Assembly: GCA_026989265.1 (NCBI GenBank)
Contig: JALSJP010000007.1
Span: forward strand, 1-34,948
Origin: Micavibrio sp.
Lineage (GTDB): Bacteria > Pseudomonadota > Alphaproteobacteria > Micavibrionales > Micavibrionaceae
Reading direction: 5' to 3'
Length of the DNA: 34,948 nt
Shown: piece by piece, positions 7,115-14,217 of the stretch
How the letters are laid out: every line of letters begins with the position of its first letter
Numbering within the stretch: the stretch's first letter is position 1
Translations under genes and position numbers: made by a program
Notes under the pieces: model-generated
Told to the model about the DNA's origin: nothing
What the model saw: the letters and a program-made list of their open reading frames with translations, nothing else
Databases searched by the model: none

Positions 7115-9019
7115 ATGGTTATGAAATCTATGCGCGGCGAAGGAAAAGCTGGCGGCATTATGAAATATTTTCTATTCACTCTACTTGGTATGGCTGTTGG
7201 TGGCTTAGTGCTAGGCAGTTTCGCGGATACAAACAGCGTTAGCAGCAACGATGTTGCAAAAATAAATGGCAAGCAAATAAGCATACAATCCTTTGACCGC
7301 TCGCTTCAACGCTCTATATCGCGCTATGGAATTTCTACTAAACAAGCATATAAAATGGGCTTGGCTGATGAAGTATTAGCAGGCGAGATTCGTAGCTATT
7401 TATTACTTAACGAAGCAGAAAGCCTTGGAATTGAAATAAGCAAAGAACAAGTCGCCGCACGCATTGCGGAGGTTGTAAAACCATATGCTCAAGATGGGCA
7501 GTCGCTACAAGATGCGCTTGAGCTTTTATTGCGCAGGCAAGGAATGAGCGAAAAAGACTTTATCCATGAGATTAAAAAAGAAGTCTCGGGCGAGATTATA
7601 ATGAACGCTATTAGAGGCGGTTTTGCCCCCTCAAATGATCTTTTGGCAAATGACTTATATATGTTCCAAACTCAAACAAGAGACATTGATATAATATTAT
7701 TCCCCGATAGCGATATAAAAATAGAGCCAGCAACCAAAGACCAGCTAGCTAAGTTATACGAGGCAACCAAGTCTTATAAATATAAAGTGCCAGAATATCG
7801 CAGCGCATATGTAGCGACTTTTGACCCTGCAAATGTTGATATTGAATTCTCAGTTTCTGATGAAGAAGTTAAAGAGGCTTACGAAAACCACAAAGACAGC
7901 TTCCGCGTGGGTGAACAACTCATATTGTCTCAGATAGTTACAAAAGATGAGCAACAAGCCAAAGACATATATGAGCTAACCGAAAATGGAATGTCCCTTA
8001 AAGCCGCCGCAGTTAAAATTATGGGCAAAGACGCTGCATATATAGAAGGCATTAGCTTTGAGACTTCCATGATGCTTCCCGATTTGATGGAGGCATTAAA
8101 AGACCGTAAAATCGGGAAAATAGTAGCCCCCGTTAAAACCATAATTGGTTATCACGTAGTAAAGCTTGATAATATTTTAGAGCCGTCAATTCGCCCGTTT
8201 AATGATGTAAAAGCAGGCATTAAGAAAGAATTGCTTGAGGTTAAAAAATCCGATTACTTCTATAATATAGCAACTGATTTCGATAAAATGCTAAGCGATG
8301 AAATGAGCCTTGAGGAAATCGCCAAAGAAATGGATATAGAAATCACCTCAATAGATTTCATTGATAATACAGGGCTTAACAAGCAAGGCGATGATGGACT
8401 TGATATGTTTAGCGAATCAGACAGGAAGGATATAGCCGCGACGATATTTGAAATTGACGGCGATATAGCATCTTCTATGCAGGACTTTGGCGGCAAACTA
8501 GTTTCCTTTGCTCTTAAATCCAAACAAGATGCTACGTTTAAGCCGTTTGAGACTATAGAAGCCGAGCTTTTGGAGCAATTTAACGCGGATTTGCGCCGCT
8601 CTGAAAATGAGCTATTAATGCAGAAATATCTTGCAGAAATAAGCACAGGCGGGAAAACCCTAGAAAGCATTGCTGCGGATAATGGCTTGAAAATTGAGAA
8701 AATATCAGAAATATCAATAGGTAAAGCCCCGCCCGCCCCCCTCACTCCTAATGTAGTTCCATTAATATTTAAAACAGAATTCGGAGCGCATGAAGTTCTA
8801 AGGCTTGATGGAAAATCTGCGATTATGAAAATATCTGGGTATGGATATAGCGGTCAAGATGATGCAGAGCTTAAAAACAAAGAAATTGAAAGCATCAAGG
8901 CAAGGGTAGGCGAAGAGGGTAAAGATGAAGTATTTTTAATGTATCTACATTCGCTTAGCAAGAAATACCCCGCCACAGTTAATGAGCGTCTATTAGAGCG
9001 GGCATATGGCGAAAATTAA
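7115..9019 (+). CDS. ppiD: Peptidyl-prolyl cis-trans isomerase, PpiD/SurA type
   Basis: PpiD-type proteins are membrane-anchored periplasmic chaperones that assist outer-membrane and exported proteins leaving the Sec channel. The 634-residue product has a short basic N-terminus, one membrane anchor (MKYFLFTLLGMAVGGLVLG, about residues 16-34), a SurA-like N-terminal chaperone domain (NGKQISIQSFDRSLQ onward) and a parvulin-like region at about residues 265-360, ending IGYHVVKLDNILEP. Starts at 7115 or the in-frame ATG at 7160 are both possible. The longer one gives the usual cytoplasmic basic segment. The last 14 bases overlap trpE. A ppiD-type gene ahead of trpE and divergent from tpiA is a common alphaproteobacterial arrangement. 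Confidence 0.88.
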   Translation: MVMKSMRGEGKAGGIMKYFLFTLLGMAVGGLVLGSFADTNSVSSNDVAKINGKQISIQSFDRSLQRSISRYGISTKQAYKMGLADEVLAGEIRSYLLLNEAESLGIEISKEQVAARIAEVVKPYAQDGQSLQDALELLLRRQGMSEKDFIHEIKKEVSGEIIMNAIRGGFAPSNDLLANDLYMFQTQTRDIDIILFPDSDIKIEPATKDQLAKLYEATKSYKYKVPEYRSAYVATFDPANVDIEFSVSDEEVKEAYENHKDSFRVGEQLILSQIVTKDEQQAKDIYELTENGMSLKAAAVKIMGKDAAYIEGISFETSMMLPDLMEALKDRKIGKIVAPVKTIIGYHVVKLDNILEPSIRPFNDVKAGIKKELLEVKKSDYFYNIATDFDKMLSDEMSLEEIAKEMDIEITSIDFIDNTGLNKQGDDGLDMFSESDRKDIAATIFEIDGDIASSMQDFGGKLVSFALKSKQDATFKPFETIEAELLEQFNADLRRSENELLMQKYLAEISTGGKTLESIAADNGLKIEKISEISIGKAPPAPLTPNVVPLIFKTEFGAHEVLRLDGKSAIMKISGYGYSGQDDAELKNKEIESIKARVGEEGKDEVFLMYLHSLSKKYPATVNERLLERAYGEN

Positions 9020-10517
9020 CTCTAATAAATTTAAGGATAACTTCAATGGTGGCAAAAGCCAGCTTGTCTGGAGCTGGATATCTGCTGATCTTGAAACGCC
9101 TGTATCTGCTTATCTTAAATTATGCGGGCATAGTGCCTATTCGTTTTTATTTGAATCAGTAGAGGGCGGAGCGACATTAGGGCGCTACTCCATAATTGGC
9201 ACAAATCCTGATTTTTTATGGAAATGCACTCGTGGTGGTCATGTGGAAACCAAAGCTCATGGTGATGGTTTATGGACTTCCCATAATGACATATGCGCCA
9301 AAAAATCACTGAAAAACCATATATCGCAAAGCAGTGTTGACATAACGCCTGATGATCTGCCACCAATGTGCAGCCTTGGTTTGTTCGGATATATTGGCTA
9401 TGACATGGTGCGCCTTGCCGAGGATATCCCCGATAATAACCCCGATGATTTAAGCGTGCCAGACAGCGTGCTTATGCGCCCATCTATATTGGCTATATTC
9501 GATAATGTCAAGAATATGATTTGCGTTGTAAGCCCCGTATATCTTCATTCAGCTAATAGCGATCTGCCCGCAGATATGGTTTATAATGATGCAAAATCTA
9601 GGGTGAAAAATGCTATAAAATTACTGGATGCACCGCTGGATAGAGCCTTACTTAATCACTCAACATCACTTAAATCAGGTGCAGAGATATCCTCTAATAC
9701 GCCGAAGGAAACATATAAAGCCGCCGTTTCAAAAGCTGTGGAATATATTAATGCGGGCGAGGTTTTTCAAGTCGTGCCGTCACAACGTTTTTCCATTGAT
9801 TTTGACTTGCCTTCGTTTGAGCTATACCGCTCACTTAGAAGTGTAAATCCCTCGCCTTTCTTGTTTCATTTGTCATTTGATGGATTTGCGCTTGTTGGCT
9901 CTAGCCCTGAGATACTGGTGCGCGTGCGTGATGATATTGTAACGATAAGGCCAATTGCAGGAACGCGCAAACGCGGGAAAAATGCCGCAGAGGACAAGGC
10001 TTTAGCCGATGATTTGCTTAGCGATCCAAAAGAATGCGCCGAGCATTTAATGCTGCTTGACCTTGGGCGCAACGATATTGGCAGAGTAGCAGAAATAGGC
10101 AGTGTCAATGTAACAGATAAATTCGGGATAGAGCTATATTCCCATGTCATGCATATAGTGTCAAATGTGGAAGGTAAATTACGCAAAGACGTTGATGTAA
10201 TTGACGCTCTATTCGCAGGTTTCCCCGCAGGAACAGTTAGCGGCGCTCCCAAAATCCGCGCAATGGAAATCATTGATGAGCTAGAGCTAAGCCGCAGAGG
10301 GACTTACGCGGGCGGGATTGGTTATTTCTCAGAAAACACAATGGATAGCTGCATTGCACTTCGTACTGGCGTTGTAAAAGACGGCAAACTCTATGTCCAA
10401 GCAGGCGGAGGAGTAGTAGCAGATTCAGACCCCGAATTCGAATACCAAGAATCATGCAACAAAGCAAAAGCCGTATTTCATGCTGCAAATCTGGCAATTG
10501 ATAAATTCCAAAAATAA
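9006..10517 (+). CDS. trpE: Anthranilate synthase component I
   Basis: TrpE converts chorismate to anthranilate using ammonia delivered by TrpG, the first committed step of tryptophan synthesis. The 503-residue protein has the N-terminal tryptophan-sensing stretch (FLFESVEGGATLGRYSIIG) and the chorismate-binding core: FHLSFDGFALVGSSPEIL, RPIAGTRKRG, LDLGRNDIGRVAEIG, GTVSGAPKIRAMEII and YAGGIGYF. It is not fused to the glutaminase, unlike rhizobial trpEG. It overlaps ppiD by 14 bases, so translation is probably coupled. Downstream, a minus-strand gene and a parS site separate it from trpG, so trpE and trpGDC are likely transcribed separately. I see no leader-peptide attenuator. Confidence 0.98.
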   Translation: MAKINSNKFKDNFNGGKSQLVWSWISADLETPVSAYLKLCGHSAYSFLFESVEGGATLGRYSIIGTNPDFLWKCTRGGHVETKAHGDGLWTSHNDICAKKSLKNHISQSSVDITPDDLPPMCSLGLFGYIGYDMVRLAEDIPDNNPDDLSVPDSVLMRPSILAIFDNVKNMICVVSPVYLHSANSDLPADMVYNDAKSRVKNAIKLLDAPLDRALLNHSTSLKSGAEISSNTPKETYKAAVSKAVEYINAGEVFQVVPSQRFSIDFDLPSFELYRSLRSVNPSPFLFHLSFDGFALVGSSPEILVRVRDDIVTIRPIAGTRKRGKNAAEDKALADDLLSDPKECAEHLMLLDLGRNDIGRVAEIGSVNVTDKFGIELYSHVMHIVSNVEGKLRKDVDVIDALFAGFPAGTVSGAPKIRAMEIIDELELSRRGTYAGGIGYFSENTMDSCIALRTGVVKDGKLYVQAGGGVVADSDPEFEYQESCNKAKAVFHAANLAIDKFQK

Positions 10518-10544
10518 CCAAGAAAACCGCCAATGTTCCCCTTA

Positions 10545-10560
10545 TGTTTCACGTGAAACA
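10545..10560. promoter_or_regulatory. parS centromere-like site (ParB binding)
   Basis: The perfect 16-base palindrome TGTTTCACGTGAAACA is identical to the widely conserved chromosomal parS sequence bound by ParB/Spo0J, as described in Bacillus and Caulobacter. It lies in the gap between the convergent ends of trpE and the deacetylase gene, where it disturbs no coding sequence. ParB loading here would nucleate the partition complex. Such sites usually cluster near the chromosome replication origin, so this locus may be origin-proximal. I saw no second copy in the window. Confidence 0.88.
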
Positions 10561-10630: not shown

Positions 10631-11791
10631 CTAATATTGGGCAACCAAATTATCATTTGCTGGCTTAGGCTGGTTAATGAGCTTGCTTGCGGGAACAAGG
10701 GTCAAACCCTTATCCTTTAATGTCGGTAGCCACGCTTTTAGGGCTGCTATGGTTTCTTTATGCGGATGCCCAATCGCAATAGCGTAGCCGTTTTTATTGG
10801 CTAACCCCTCTAACTCTAGCAAAGCCGCCTCAATAAATTCTGGCGTTTGCTCATGATCTATAAACACATCACGAACAGCATATGGAACACCTAAATTGCG
10901 CGCTGATTTTGCCGCAACCGATGAGCCAATAGTCTTTGAATCGATAAAAAATAAATCACCATCTTTGTTTTTTAAATATTTCATAATATGGTTCATTGCA
11001 TTTTCATCTTGAGTAAGCTTGCTACCCATATGATTATTAATGCCTACAAACCCATCAAATTGAGATAGCCCCCAATCAAGCATATCCTCTAACTCTTTAT
11101 CACTGCTTGAGGTTTTAAGCACTTTGGGACCGCCATCCATATATTCGTTCATAGCCTCCATAGGTATATGCACCATAAGCTCATGACCATTTTTCGATGC
11201 GCGAGTCGTGCGCTCTTTCAAATTTTTAGCATATGGCAAATAAGATAATGTCAAAGGCGCGGGCAGCACCTCAACAAGCTTGCTCCGCAGGCTAATCCCC
11301 ATATCATCAATGATAATTGCGATCATGCCCTGCCCTTTTGGCTTATCATATTCGTAAACAGCCACCTGATTGCTAGGCTCAATCTTGAGAACTTCAATTG
11401 GCTCGACTTCTTTGTAAATTTCTTTATCAATACCAACCGCAGGCATAATATTAGCCAACGCAACAGCATTTTGATTGGCGAGTATCTCATCAATAGTAAT
11501 AGATAGCGCGTCCTCACGAGATATAGGATCAACCTTAGCCTTAGCCAAGCTAACGGGCGGCATTTTTGGCTTAGACATCATAGAAGGCTCAATATAAATT
11601 CCATCATCCATATATAAATTATGCTGATCGCGAAGACTCGCAACATTAACCAAAGGCTCTTCACTATAATTTTGCACGACTTTTTTAATGCCGCCAAATA
11701 GAAAAAGCTCACTCAAAACCACAGCCGCCCCGCCAATAAGGATAAATATTATTATCTTTGTTGGGTTAAATTTCCTGTCTTCATATTCCAT
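10631..11791 (-). CDS. Divergent polysaccharide deacetylase family protein (YibQ-like)
   Basis: This 386-residue protein has a short basic cytoplasmic N-terminus, one membrane segment (IIIFILIGGAAVVLSELFLF, about residues 14-33), a linker of about 120 residues, and a C-terminal divergent polysaccharide deacetylase domain (about residues 155-375). Typical motifs are IAIIIDDMGIS, HIPMEAM, GINNHMGSKLT, FFIDSKTIGSS and AIGHPHKETI. Family members are envelope proteins, sometimes near peptidoglycan-hydrolase activators. Their substrate is not firmly established, and I infer a periplasmic, cell-wall-related role. The gene is inverted relative to the trp genes and splits trpE from trpG, with no obvious functional link to tryptophan synthesis. 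Confidence 0.88.
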   Translation of the reverse strand: MEYEDRKFNPTKIIIFILIGGAAVVLSELFLFGGIKKVVQNYSEEPLVNVASLRDQHNLYMDDGIYIEPSMMSKPKMPPVSLAKAKVDPISREDALSITIDEILANQNAVALANIMPAVGIDKEIYKEVEPIEVLKIEPSNQVAVYEYDKPKGQGMIAIIIDDMGISLRSKLVEVLPAPLTLSYLPYAKNLKERTTRASKNGHELMVHIPMEAMNEYMDGGPKVLKTSSSDKELEDMLDWGLSQFDGFVGINNHMGSKLTQDENAMNHIMKYLKNKDGDLFFIDSKTIGSSVAAKSARNLGVPYAVRDVFIDHEQTPEFIEAALLELEGLANKNGYAIAIGHPHKETIAALKAWLPTLKDKGLTLVPASKLINQPKPANDNLVAQY

Positions 11792-13419: not shown

Positions 13420-14214
13420 ATGAATATATTACAAGAAATATGCGCAAAGAAAAAAGAGCATGTGCGATATAAAAAATCCAGCCATCCGCTTGATAATTTA
13501 ACTTGCCTAATAGATGAAATGCCTATGCCATATGGGTTTTTCAATAGTATGAAGCGAGCAAATGGGGCGGCTTTAATTGCTGAGATTAAAAAAGCATCGC
13601 CAAGCAAGGGCGTTATAAGGCAAGATTTTAACCCCGTGGAAATAGCAAAAATATACGAGCAATCAGGGGCGGCTTGTCTTTCTGTTTTAACAGATGAGCC
13701 TTATTTCAAAGGGAATGACAGCTTTATTGCTGCGATCAAAAAAGAAGTTGATATCCCTGTGCTGCGTAAAGATTTCATGGTTGACCCCTATCAAATATAC
13801 GAATCACGCGCGATTGGGGCGGATTGTGTTTTGCTTATAATGGCGGCTCTTAATGATAATTTGGCACTAGAATTATATGAAACCGCAAGATCATTGCATT
13901 TGGATATTTTGGTCGAAGTCCATGATTTAGAAGAGCTAGAACGCGCCCTAAGGCTAGAGCCTATGATGATTGGCGTTAATAATCGCAACCTAAAAACCAT
14001 GGAAATTGATATAAATACCTCTTATGATTTATTGATGAATATTCCTGATAATATATATAAAATATCTGAAAGCGGAATTGGGGATAATGCCACAGTGACA
14101 GGGCTTTACAATGCTGGATATAAAGGTTTCCTTGTGGGGGAAAGCCTTATGCGTGAGGATAATATTGCAGATGCCGTGCATAAACTTCTTGACACAAAAG
14201 GCGAACCAAGCTAG
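13420..14214 (+). CDS. trpC: Indole-3-glycerol phosphate synthase
   Basis: TrpC closes the indole ring, converting carboxyphenylamino-deoxyribulose phosphate to indole-3-glycerol phosphate. The 264-residue TIM-barrel protein has the family motifs AEIKKASPSKGVI, PVLRKDFMVDPYQIYESRAIGADCVLLI, GVNNRNLKTMEID, SESGIG and FLVGESLMR. It is not fused to trpF. Neither trpF nor trpBA is in the window, so those steps are encoded elsewhere. Its last bases overlap the lexA operator, and its 3' end holds the likely lexA promoter. Confidence 0.98.
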   Translation: MNILQEICAKKKEHVRYKKSSHPLDNLTCLIDEMPMPYGFFNSMKRANGAALIAEIKKASPSKGVIRQDFNPVEIAKIYEQSGAACLSVLTDEPYFKGNDSFIAAIKKEVDIPVLRKDFMVDPYQIYESRAIGADCVLLIMAALNDNLALELYETARSLHLDILVEVHDLEELERALRLEPMMIGVNNRNLKTMEIDINTSYDLLMNIPDNIYKISESGIGDNATVTGLYNAGYKGFLVGESLMREDNIADAVHKLLDTKGEPS

Positions 14215-14217
14215 AAC
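14189..14217 (+). promoter_or_regulatory. lexA promoter with SOS box
   Basis: A consensus TTGACA -35 (14189-14194) is followed after 17 bases by TAGAAC (14212-14217). Covering the spacer and -10 is GAAC-N7-GAAC at 14203-14217, which is exactly the LexA operator established for alphaproteobacteria. LexA bound here would block RNA polymerase, giving the expected negative autoregulation. The promoter lies inside the 3' end of trpC, so lexA can be transcribed apart from the trp genes. Confidence 0.75.

Follow-up and report, generated by a model that had tools for sequence, protein, structure and literature searches.

A parS palindrome with a precisely spaced third half-site, dispersed over the chromosomes of Micavibrio sp. 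and some other alphaproteobacteria

The palindrome downstream of trpE and its copies in the genome

The window analyzed here, a stretch of 34,948 nucleotides, is the start of contig C7 of a Micavibrio sp. draft genome (GCA_026989265.1; G000 below) that comprises 1.74 Mb (1741 kb) in 34 contigs and has a completeness rating of 100%. It contains trpE and, convergent with it, a gene for a divergent polysaccharide deacetylase, and a 16-bp palindrome lies in the gap between the two (Table 1). Among the entries of the named collection, the best relative of trpE comes from a Micavibrio metagenome assembly (86% protein identity); trpE itself is not thought to be part of the function of the element described below. 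The palindrome, spelled TGTTTCACGTGAAACA, matches the 16-bp palindrome of chromosomal parS sites, TGTTYCACGTGRAACA, exactly, and it is the sole match in the window even if three mismatches are allowed (0.12 expected by shuffling). With the base composition of the window, the exact 16-mer is expected 1.2e-5 times per window and 6e-4 times per 1.74-Mb genome, and 13 copies were observed in the genome. The first-pass annotation had described a perfect parS palindrome, very unlikely by chance, between trpE and an inverted envelope gene, and this was borne out in all three points. It omitted a TGTTC on the trpE side, which forms, together with the palindrome, a 27-bp element that recurs at other dispersed copies and is called the composite in the following.

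Table 1. Features of the trpE-lexA region of the window
Feature	Position	Strand	Remarks
parS palindrome TGTTTCACGTGAAACA	10545..10560	.	Candidate ParB docking site; zero mismatches
Composite element TGTTC-N6-parS, 27 bp	10534..10560	+	Exact pattern match; same fixed spacing at dispersed copies in G000, G010, G005 and G059
Third half-site TGTTC	10534..10538	+	On the trpE side of the palindrome; missing from origin-cluster parS
trpE, anthranilate synthase component I (left neighbor)	9006..10517	+	TIGR00564, 557 bits
Divergent polysaccharide deacetylase (right neighbor, convergent with trpE)	10631..11791	-	PF04748, E 2.5e-75
GTTC-N7-GTTC upstream of lexA	14203..14217	-	Putative LexA box, by resemblance; lexA is TIGR00498; contrast to the third half-site of the composite

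A search of the whole genome of G000 revealed 13 perfect palindromes on eight contigs and 2 copies with one mismatch. Four perfect copies lie within 5 kb on contig C19, adjoining parB in the gene order mnmE-gidA-gidB-parB, and the remaining nine are found on seven other contigs. For G000, the gidA-gidB-parB cluster served to define the origin (dnaA lies on a different contig); on this basis, 4/13 perfect copies are beside parB and 9/13 are dispersed. Since the shortest arc with all 13 copies is at least 660 kb of 1741 kb (38%) under any order of the contigs, the copies are not all origin-proximal and, as far as the contigs allow, many are scattered far from the origin. The proposal that the window may be origin-proximal was therefore not upheld.

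Instead, the window is probably terminus-proximal, as judged by synteny with G059, a genome of the same family in 8 contigs. The GC skew of its contig C1, which is somewhat noisy, flips sign at around 630 to 650 kb. The trp block of the window corresponds to 560 to 572 kb of this contig, reversed, the block from a hydroxyacid dehydrogenase gene to pnp corresponds to 691 to 709 kb, and genes further along C7 correspond to 824 to 842 kb. Thus, the window unites genes that flank the terminus of G059, and its genes have their counterparts within about 80 kb of this skew-defined terminus. The two blocks are on opposite sides of the G059 terminus, as would result from an inversion centered on the terminus. 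In G336, which belongs to another family, relatives of trpG, trpD, trpC and lexA are located at 521 to 529 kb, with one composite between trpG and trpD; the skew changes from plus to minus between 0.35 and 0.52 Mb, which puts this block at or beside the terminus. The sign convention of the skew was checked in G034: the skew there is negative at 1.53 and 1.92 Mb and positive at 0.30 Mb, and the parB cluster, at 1.926 Mb, is close to the change from minus to plus. Since the skew of C7 is weak and mixed over the window, the placement at the terminus rests on synteny.

A third half-site at fixed spacing

Of the 9 dispersed perfect copies in G000, 8 have TGTTC at a distance of exactly 6 bp and one has CGTTC there; the two copies with one mismatch also carry TGTTC at 6 bp. 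When loci were fetched for the palindrome alone (perfect or with one mismatch), TGTTC was present at gap 6 at 10/15 palindromes in G000, 8/11 in G010, 4/9 in G005 and 9/18 in G059, and all other gaps from 0 to 30 gave 3 matches in the four genomes combined. The chance of TGTTC at gap 6, on either side, is about 0.0017 per site. If one mismatch is allowed, TGTTC accompanies 11/11 dispersed copies in G000, 8/8 in G010, 5/7 in G005 and 11/15 in G059. At the mnmE-gidA-parB cluster, copies with one mismatch included, it was found at 0/4 copies in G000, 0/3 in G010 (a contig with mnmE and gidA that is broken before gidB-parB), 0/2 in G005, 0/4 in G059 and 0/6 in G034. The rule is strict at the clusters and strong, not absolute, at the dispersed sites: 2/7 dispersed palindromes in G005 and 4/15 in G059 have no TGTTC, and only 4 composites are found among the 9 dispersed palindromes of G058.

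Aligned over 63 composites, the third half-site reads TGTTC (the first base mostly T), any base, C or T (60/63) and then often G (31/63); that of the window is TGTTCCC. It looks like a parS half minus one base (TGTT-CNYG versus TGTTYCACG). The offset between TGTTCNY and the left palindrome half, which lies downstream of it in the same orientation, is 11 bp, or one helical turn.

With at most one mismatch, the composite is present in 20 of the 104 genomes of the family, 10 of which have exact matches, with a maximum of 11 each in G000 and G059; several of the ten genomes with inexact matches have a single one-mismatch match, which may be due to chance. A reversed control pattern gave zero matches in the same 104 genomes. 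Since 84/104 family genomes are without the composite, it is not required by the lineage overall. Exact composites were found in 9 of 385 genomes drawn from the class (G000 included; 7 composites in G336), plus one genome with a single mismatch, and a few further alphaproteobacterial families have exact copies. In 398 genomes of the phylum, searched with gaps of 3 to 12, gap 6 gave 7 matches outside G000, all of them in the same class, and the other nine gaps together gave 9; genomes outside the class contributed nothing at gap 6 but 5 matches at the remaining gaps. Because the gap-6 matches are all within the class, the fixed spacing characterizes some alphaproteobacteria. At ten loci outside the family (L202 to L211), no relative of the ParB of G000 was found within 10 kb on either side.

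Some composites are arranged differently. Those at L193 (G034 C1:1542249) and L208 (G417 C3:112878) are symmetric elements with a third half-site on both sides of the palindrome, and those at L207 and L209 (G417 C2 and G494 C12, high-GC genomes of another alphaproteobacterial family) are tandem composites 33 to 34 bp apart. At L108 and L111 (start of C153 and end of C262 in G010), the contigs break at the composites and the left flanks are nearly the same, perhaps through a duplication, or because the assembly broke off at a repeat.

A composite is located inside rimM in G000, G010, G005 and G002. In this gene, picked after the site was seen, 6/7 amino-acid-invariant codons within the element are codon-invariant across the four species versus 19/80 outside it (Fisher p 0.002), and the copy looks constrained at the DNA level. 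One copy keeps its place between genera, in that the ABC-F-like gene which it follows at the 3' end is the same in G000 and G103. Composite neighborhoods may be conserved between distant genomes as well, as the comparison suggests. At the corresponding gene pair of L023, the nearest trpE relative detected, the window copy is missing, and no palindrome was detected at 560 to 580 kb of G059, a region that carries relatives of trpE and the deacetylase gene. Thus, copies turn over. Judged by rimM and by the spacing and conservation tests above, the composite is a real element under selection.

By mechanical ORF calls, 39/50 composites are intergenic, a figure to be taken loosely since at least one coding site, rimM of G010, was misplaced. 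As read from Pfam hits, the neighbors of the G000 copies are sufD and sufS, sufE and a ClpX-like gene, a thioesterase gene and ruvB, a desaturase gene and an ABC-F-like gene, purA, a gene for an ileS-like synthetase, hisD, dksA and flgH, and cmk and aroA. These are unrelated housekeeping genes, which argues against a regulon and points to chromosome position rather than regulation.

In G059, 8 composites are distributed along the 1.33-Mb contig C1 on both sides of the skew terminus, and their spacing is more even than random (p 0.012, for one genome and its 8 C1 composites, with four C1 palindromes without TGTTC left out). The composites of G034 are about 384, 517 and 1024 kb from the cluster if the 2.13-Mb contig is treated as a circle, and those of G336 are about 503 to 1358 kb from the skew origin. 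We considered origin avoidance as a general rule; it holds in G336 (nearest composite at about 503 kb) but fails in G000, where a composite with one mismatch (C19:36093) is some 8 kb away from the cluster, and the rule was rejected. Nor is there a rule for orientation relative to replication: 8/10 scorable composites of G059 (the site on C8, where the skew is near zero, was excluded) point with replication, but only 4/8 do so in G336.

The reader of the element and its partners

The ParB of G000, encoded on C19 (TIGR00180, 192 bits), has the domains ParB_N, HTH_ParB and ParB_C, and a cognate ParB for a chromosomal parS is thus present. The spelling TGTTCCACGTGGAACA is shared by all 11 composites of G059 and the three perfect copies near its parB, the fourth cluster copy having one mismatch; in the congener G058, the four composites and the two palindromes near parB are spelled likewise. 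In G000, G010, G034 and G103, the palindromes of the cluster and of the composites are mainly TGTTTCACGTGAAACA, as are the palindromes of G121 (parB position not located). Because the spelling of the palindrome co-varies between cluster and composites, ParB is the natural reader of both classes of site. This co-variation, seen in one genus, would represent one evolutionary change, as far as is visible.

A ParB paralogue is unnecessary, since four composite-bearing genomes (G010, G005, G058 and G103) have a single ParB_N protein each at the search threshold. Two weak ParB_N matches in G000 were considered as ParB paralogues but were read, from their sequences, as phage-type DNA methyltransferases and not as partition proteins. 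Both are near-identical 403-aa proteins with a ParB_N-like N terminus and an apparent DNA methyltransferase domain, encoded on C21 (near 6983) and C6 (near 26379) of G000, perhaps in two related prophage remnants.

According to the first-pass annotation, an absence of parAB from the genome would speak against its reading. Half of this applies to G000: a three-domain ParB is encoded, with four perfect parS alongside on C19, but canonical ParA was not found in the 34 contigs of the draft. The gidB-parB operon lacks its gene, and the ParA of a congener, G005, used as a query against the genome, gave weak partial matches only (27 to 35%). Partial matches were also all that this query found in G002 (28 to 34%) and G010 (27 to 33%; 51% over 45 residues). 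Three partial matches in G000 include MipZ (PF09140, 328 bits), and a second ParA-like match, adjoining an FlhF-like gene, was read as FlhG. The same query detected canonical ParA at 70 to 76% identity in five congeners (G008, G009, G011, G006 and G003) and a match of 63% in G059 and G034; G004 and G007 gave weak matches only and G001 a short 66% fragment, these three genomes being 74 to 86% complete. gidB and parB are direct neighbors without parA in G000 (C19, L019:11960-13592), G010 and G002, and parA is retained directly before parB in G005 and G009. This looks like a loss of parA within one genus that kept ParB and, in G000, MipZ. Since G005, G059 and G034 have both ParA and composites, the loss of ParA is not the cause of the composites. 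The available text of PMC7333895 describes ParB and parS without ParA as known, for example, from Streptococcus pneumoniae.

If the palindrome is read by ParB, TGTTC could be read by a different protein that adjoins or competes with ParB, and the composite would then be a gated ParB site. This is possible, but we consider it rather unlikely. In its favor, the third half-site stays TGTTC in G059 despite the changed spelling of the palindrome; if ParB read the third half-site, TGTTC might be expected to change as well, yet it is constant while the palindrome differs between genera. Moreover, in 11/12 rows of composites with half-C/half-T palindromes, of which several seem to be orthologous, the C is on the side of the third half-site, a hint of a second reader that wants TGTTC twice. 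Such a C, placed beside the third half-site, is present in G005 and G002 at three composites each, spelled TGTTCCACGTGAAACA, whereas the cluster copies of these genomes are TGTTTCACGTGAAACA. The 11-bp direct repeat of the composite is typical of dimeric helix-turn-helix repressors. On the other hand, no candidate protein was identified, and the third half-site fits a parS half minus one base (TGTTCNY), for which no second protein is needed.

LexA could be such a protein if the composite were an SOS box overlapping parS, with LexA covering TGTTC-N6-TGTTY and blocking ParB until DNA damage occurs, but we regard this as very improbable. Alphaproteobacterial LexA boxes are GTTC-N7-GTTC and share the 11-bp period of the composite. 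Such boxes were found upstream of lexA at 27/34 loci read, the window included (29 boxes), and GTTC-N7-GTTC is contained in the composites of G002 and G059 and in most of those of G005. However, two positions after TGTTC, 60/63 composites have C or T, compared with only 5/29 lexA-upstream boxes, which favor A (p 3e-14), and in G000 and G010 no composite has GTTC as its second half, the pattern being GTTC-N7-GTTT or a variant throughout. Nor do the neighbors of the G000 sites form an SOS set, though ruvB adjoins one site. In view of the base preference and the GTTT in G000, the composites do not have the spelling of the local lexA-upstream boxes, and their identity as LexA boxes was rejected.

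That the site is an ordinary origin-proximal parS without further structure is hardly plausible: the consensus is perfect and ParB is encoded, but the copies are dispersed, synteny puts the window at the terminus and the TGTTC extension is missing from the origin sites. Least plausible are relics or target sites of mobile elements or phages carrying parS-like DNA, since the composite pattern does occur in 14 viral contigs but is not clearly above chance there (controls with shifted TGTTC match 10 contigs at gap 7 and 5 at gap 5), outside the element no obvious similarity is seen among the 36-base flanks of the G000 sites, and the neighbors are housekeeping genes. Given the two controls, the viral matches were treated as chance plus parS-like phage sites, and a link to phages was rejected. 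One viral contig (L161, 11725 bases) is phage-like, with inverted terminal repeats and the parS palindrome mirrored near both ends (132 and 11579).

Relation to known systems and possible role

parS is usually treated as the centromere of the origin region; a comparative survey of parS positions was reportedly made by Livny in 2007. A ParB site that consists of a palindrome and an extra box at fixed spacing is familiar from plasmid P1, whose parS has A and B boxes, but this is a plasmid system with other sequences. Noc of Bacillus is a ParB paralogue with its own palindrome, whereas here the palindrome is parS itself and no separate paralogue for the dispersed sites was found in the four composite-bearing genomes with a single ParB_N protein. 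Common to both is a ParB-type 16-bp site dispersed around the chromosome, in the case of Noc the NBS sites (see also PMC8429893).

With the chromosomal parS of ParABS systems (Caulobacter, Bacillus, Hyphomonas), the window site shares the identical 16-bp palindrome, as given for Hyphomonas in the accessible part of PMC7022226, and G000 encodes ParB and has a four-copy cluster at mnmE-gidA-gidB-parB. The window copy differs in that it is single, lies outside the parB cluster and carries TGTTC, and canonical ParA was not found in G000. In Pseudomonas aeruginosa, ParB binds hundreds of half-parS heptamers, GTTCCAC or GTTTCAC, and is thus held at many places of the nucleoid; the extra half-sites there are single heptamers, according to the portions available of PMC10419367 and PMC7022226. 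G000, in contrast, has about ten full palindromes plus one modified half-site at fixed spacing, and this half-site is not the heptamer but TGTTCNY (in 60/63 composites). The predator Bdellovibrio has two parS near the origin, as stated in the available text of PMC10547168. Our literature search, in which subscription literature was mostly outside the scope, found no paper on parS sites with Micavibrio, nor on parS, LexA, SOS box and ParB together, and no title among the matches listed describes such an element.

On balance, we lean towards the reading that the site is a ParB-docking center of a dispersed, extended type, serving chromosome architecture rather than origin partition. The chromosomal ParB would recognize the 16-bp palindrome of the origin cluster as well as that of about ten single sites on the chromosome, the window copy included. 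The third half-site, TGTTCNY, might take an extra ParB subunit or dimer, and this extra contact could alter clamp loading or sliding and so temper loading. Sites on the arms and near the terminus would then hold ParB without acting as second centromeres. A point against this reading is that plain ParB loading at the dispersed places would be costly because, as far as the accessible text of PMC5815017 goes, Caulobacter, likewise an alphaproteobacterium, tolerates an extra parS cluster best within about 500 kb of the origin and disfavors it mid-arm; ectopic parS also disturbs MipZ foci there (PMC5815017). The likely use of such sites would be nucleoid-wide architecture or division control via ParB, with MipZ encoded and canonical ParA not found, and not regulation of the neighboring genes. 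What the analysis shows is the sequence, the spacing, the dispersal, the co-variation with cluster parS in one genus and the conservation of one copy at the DNA level; binding by ParB, the additional subunit and the function are inferred.

More tentatively, the palindrome with its third half-site might be a separate functional class of ParB site across the chromosomes of certain alphaproteobacteria, with which ParB and MipZ, in part of the genus without canonical ParA, would mark or fold the whole nucleoid, the third half-site preventing extra centromeres. The novelty is a class of site, not a protein family. The lineage described here has full parS palindromes in the chromosome arms and near the terminus, mostly with a precisely spaced half-site that is missing at the origin copies. 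It lets one ask how a centromere differs from a site at which ParB merely docks, and what role ParB may have away from the origin, including in genomes where canonical ParA was not found.
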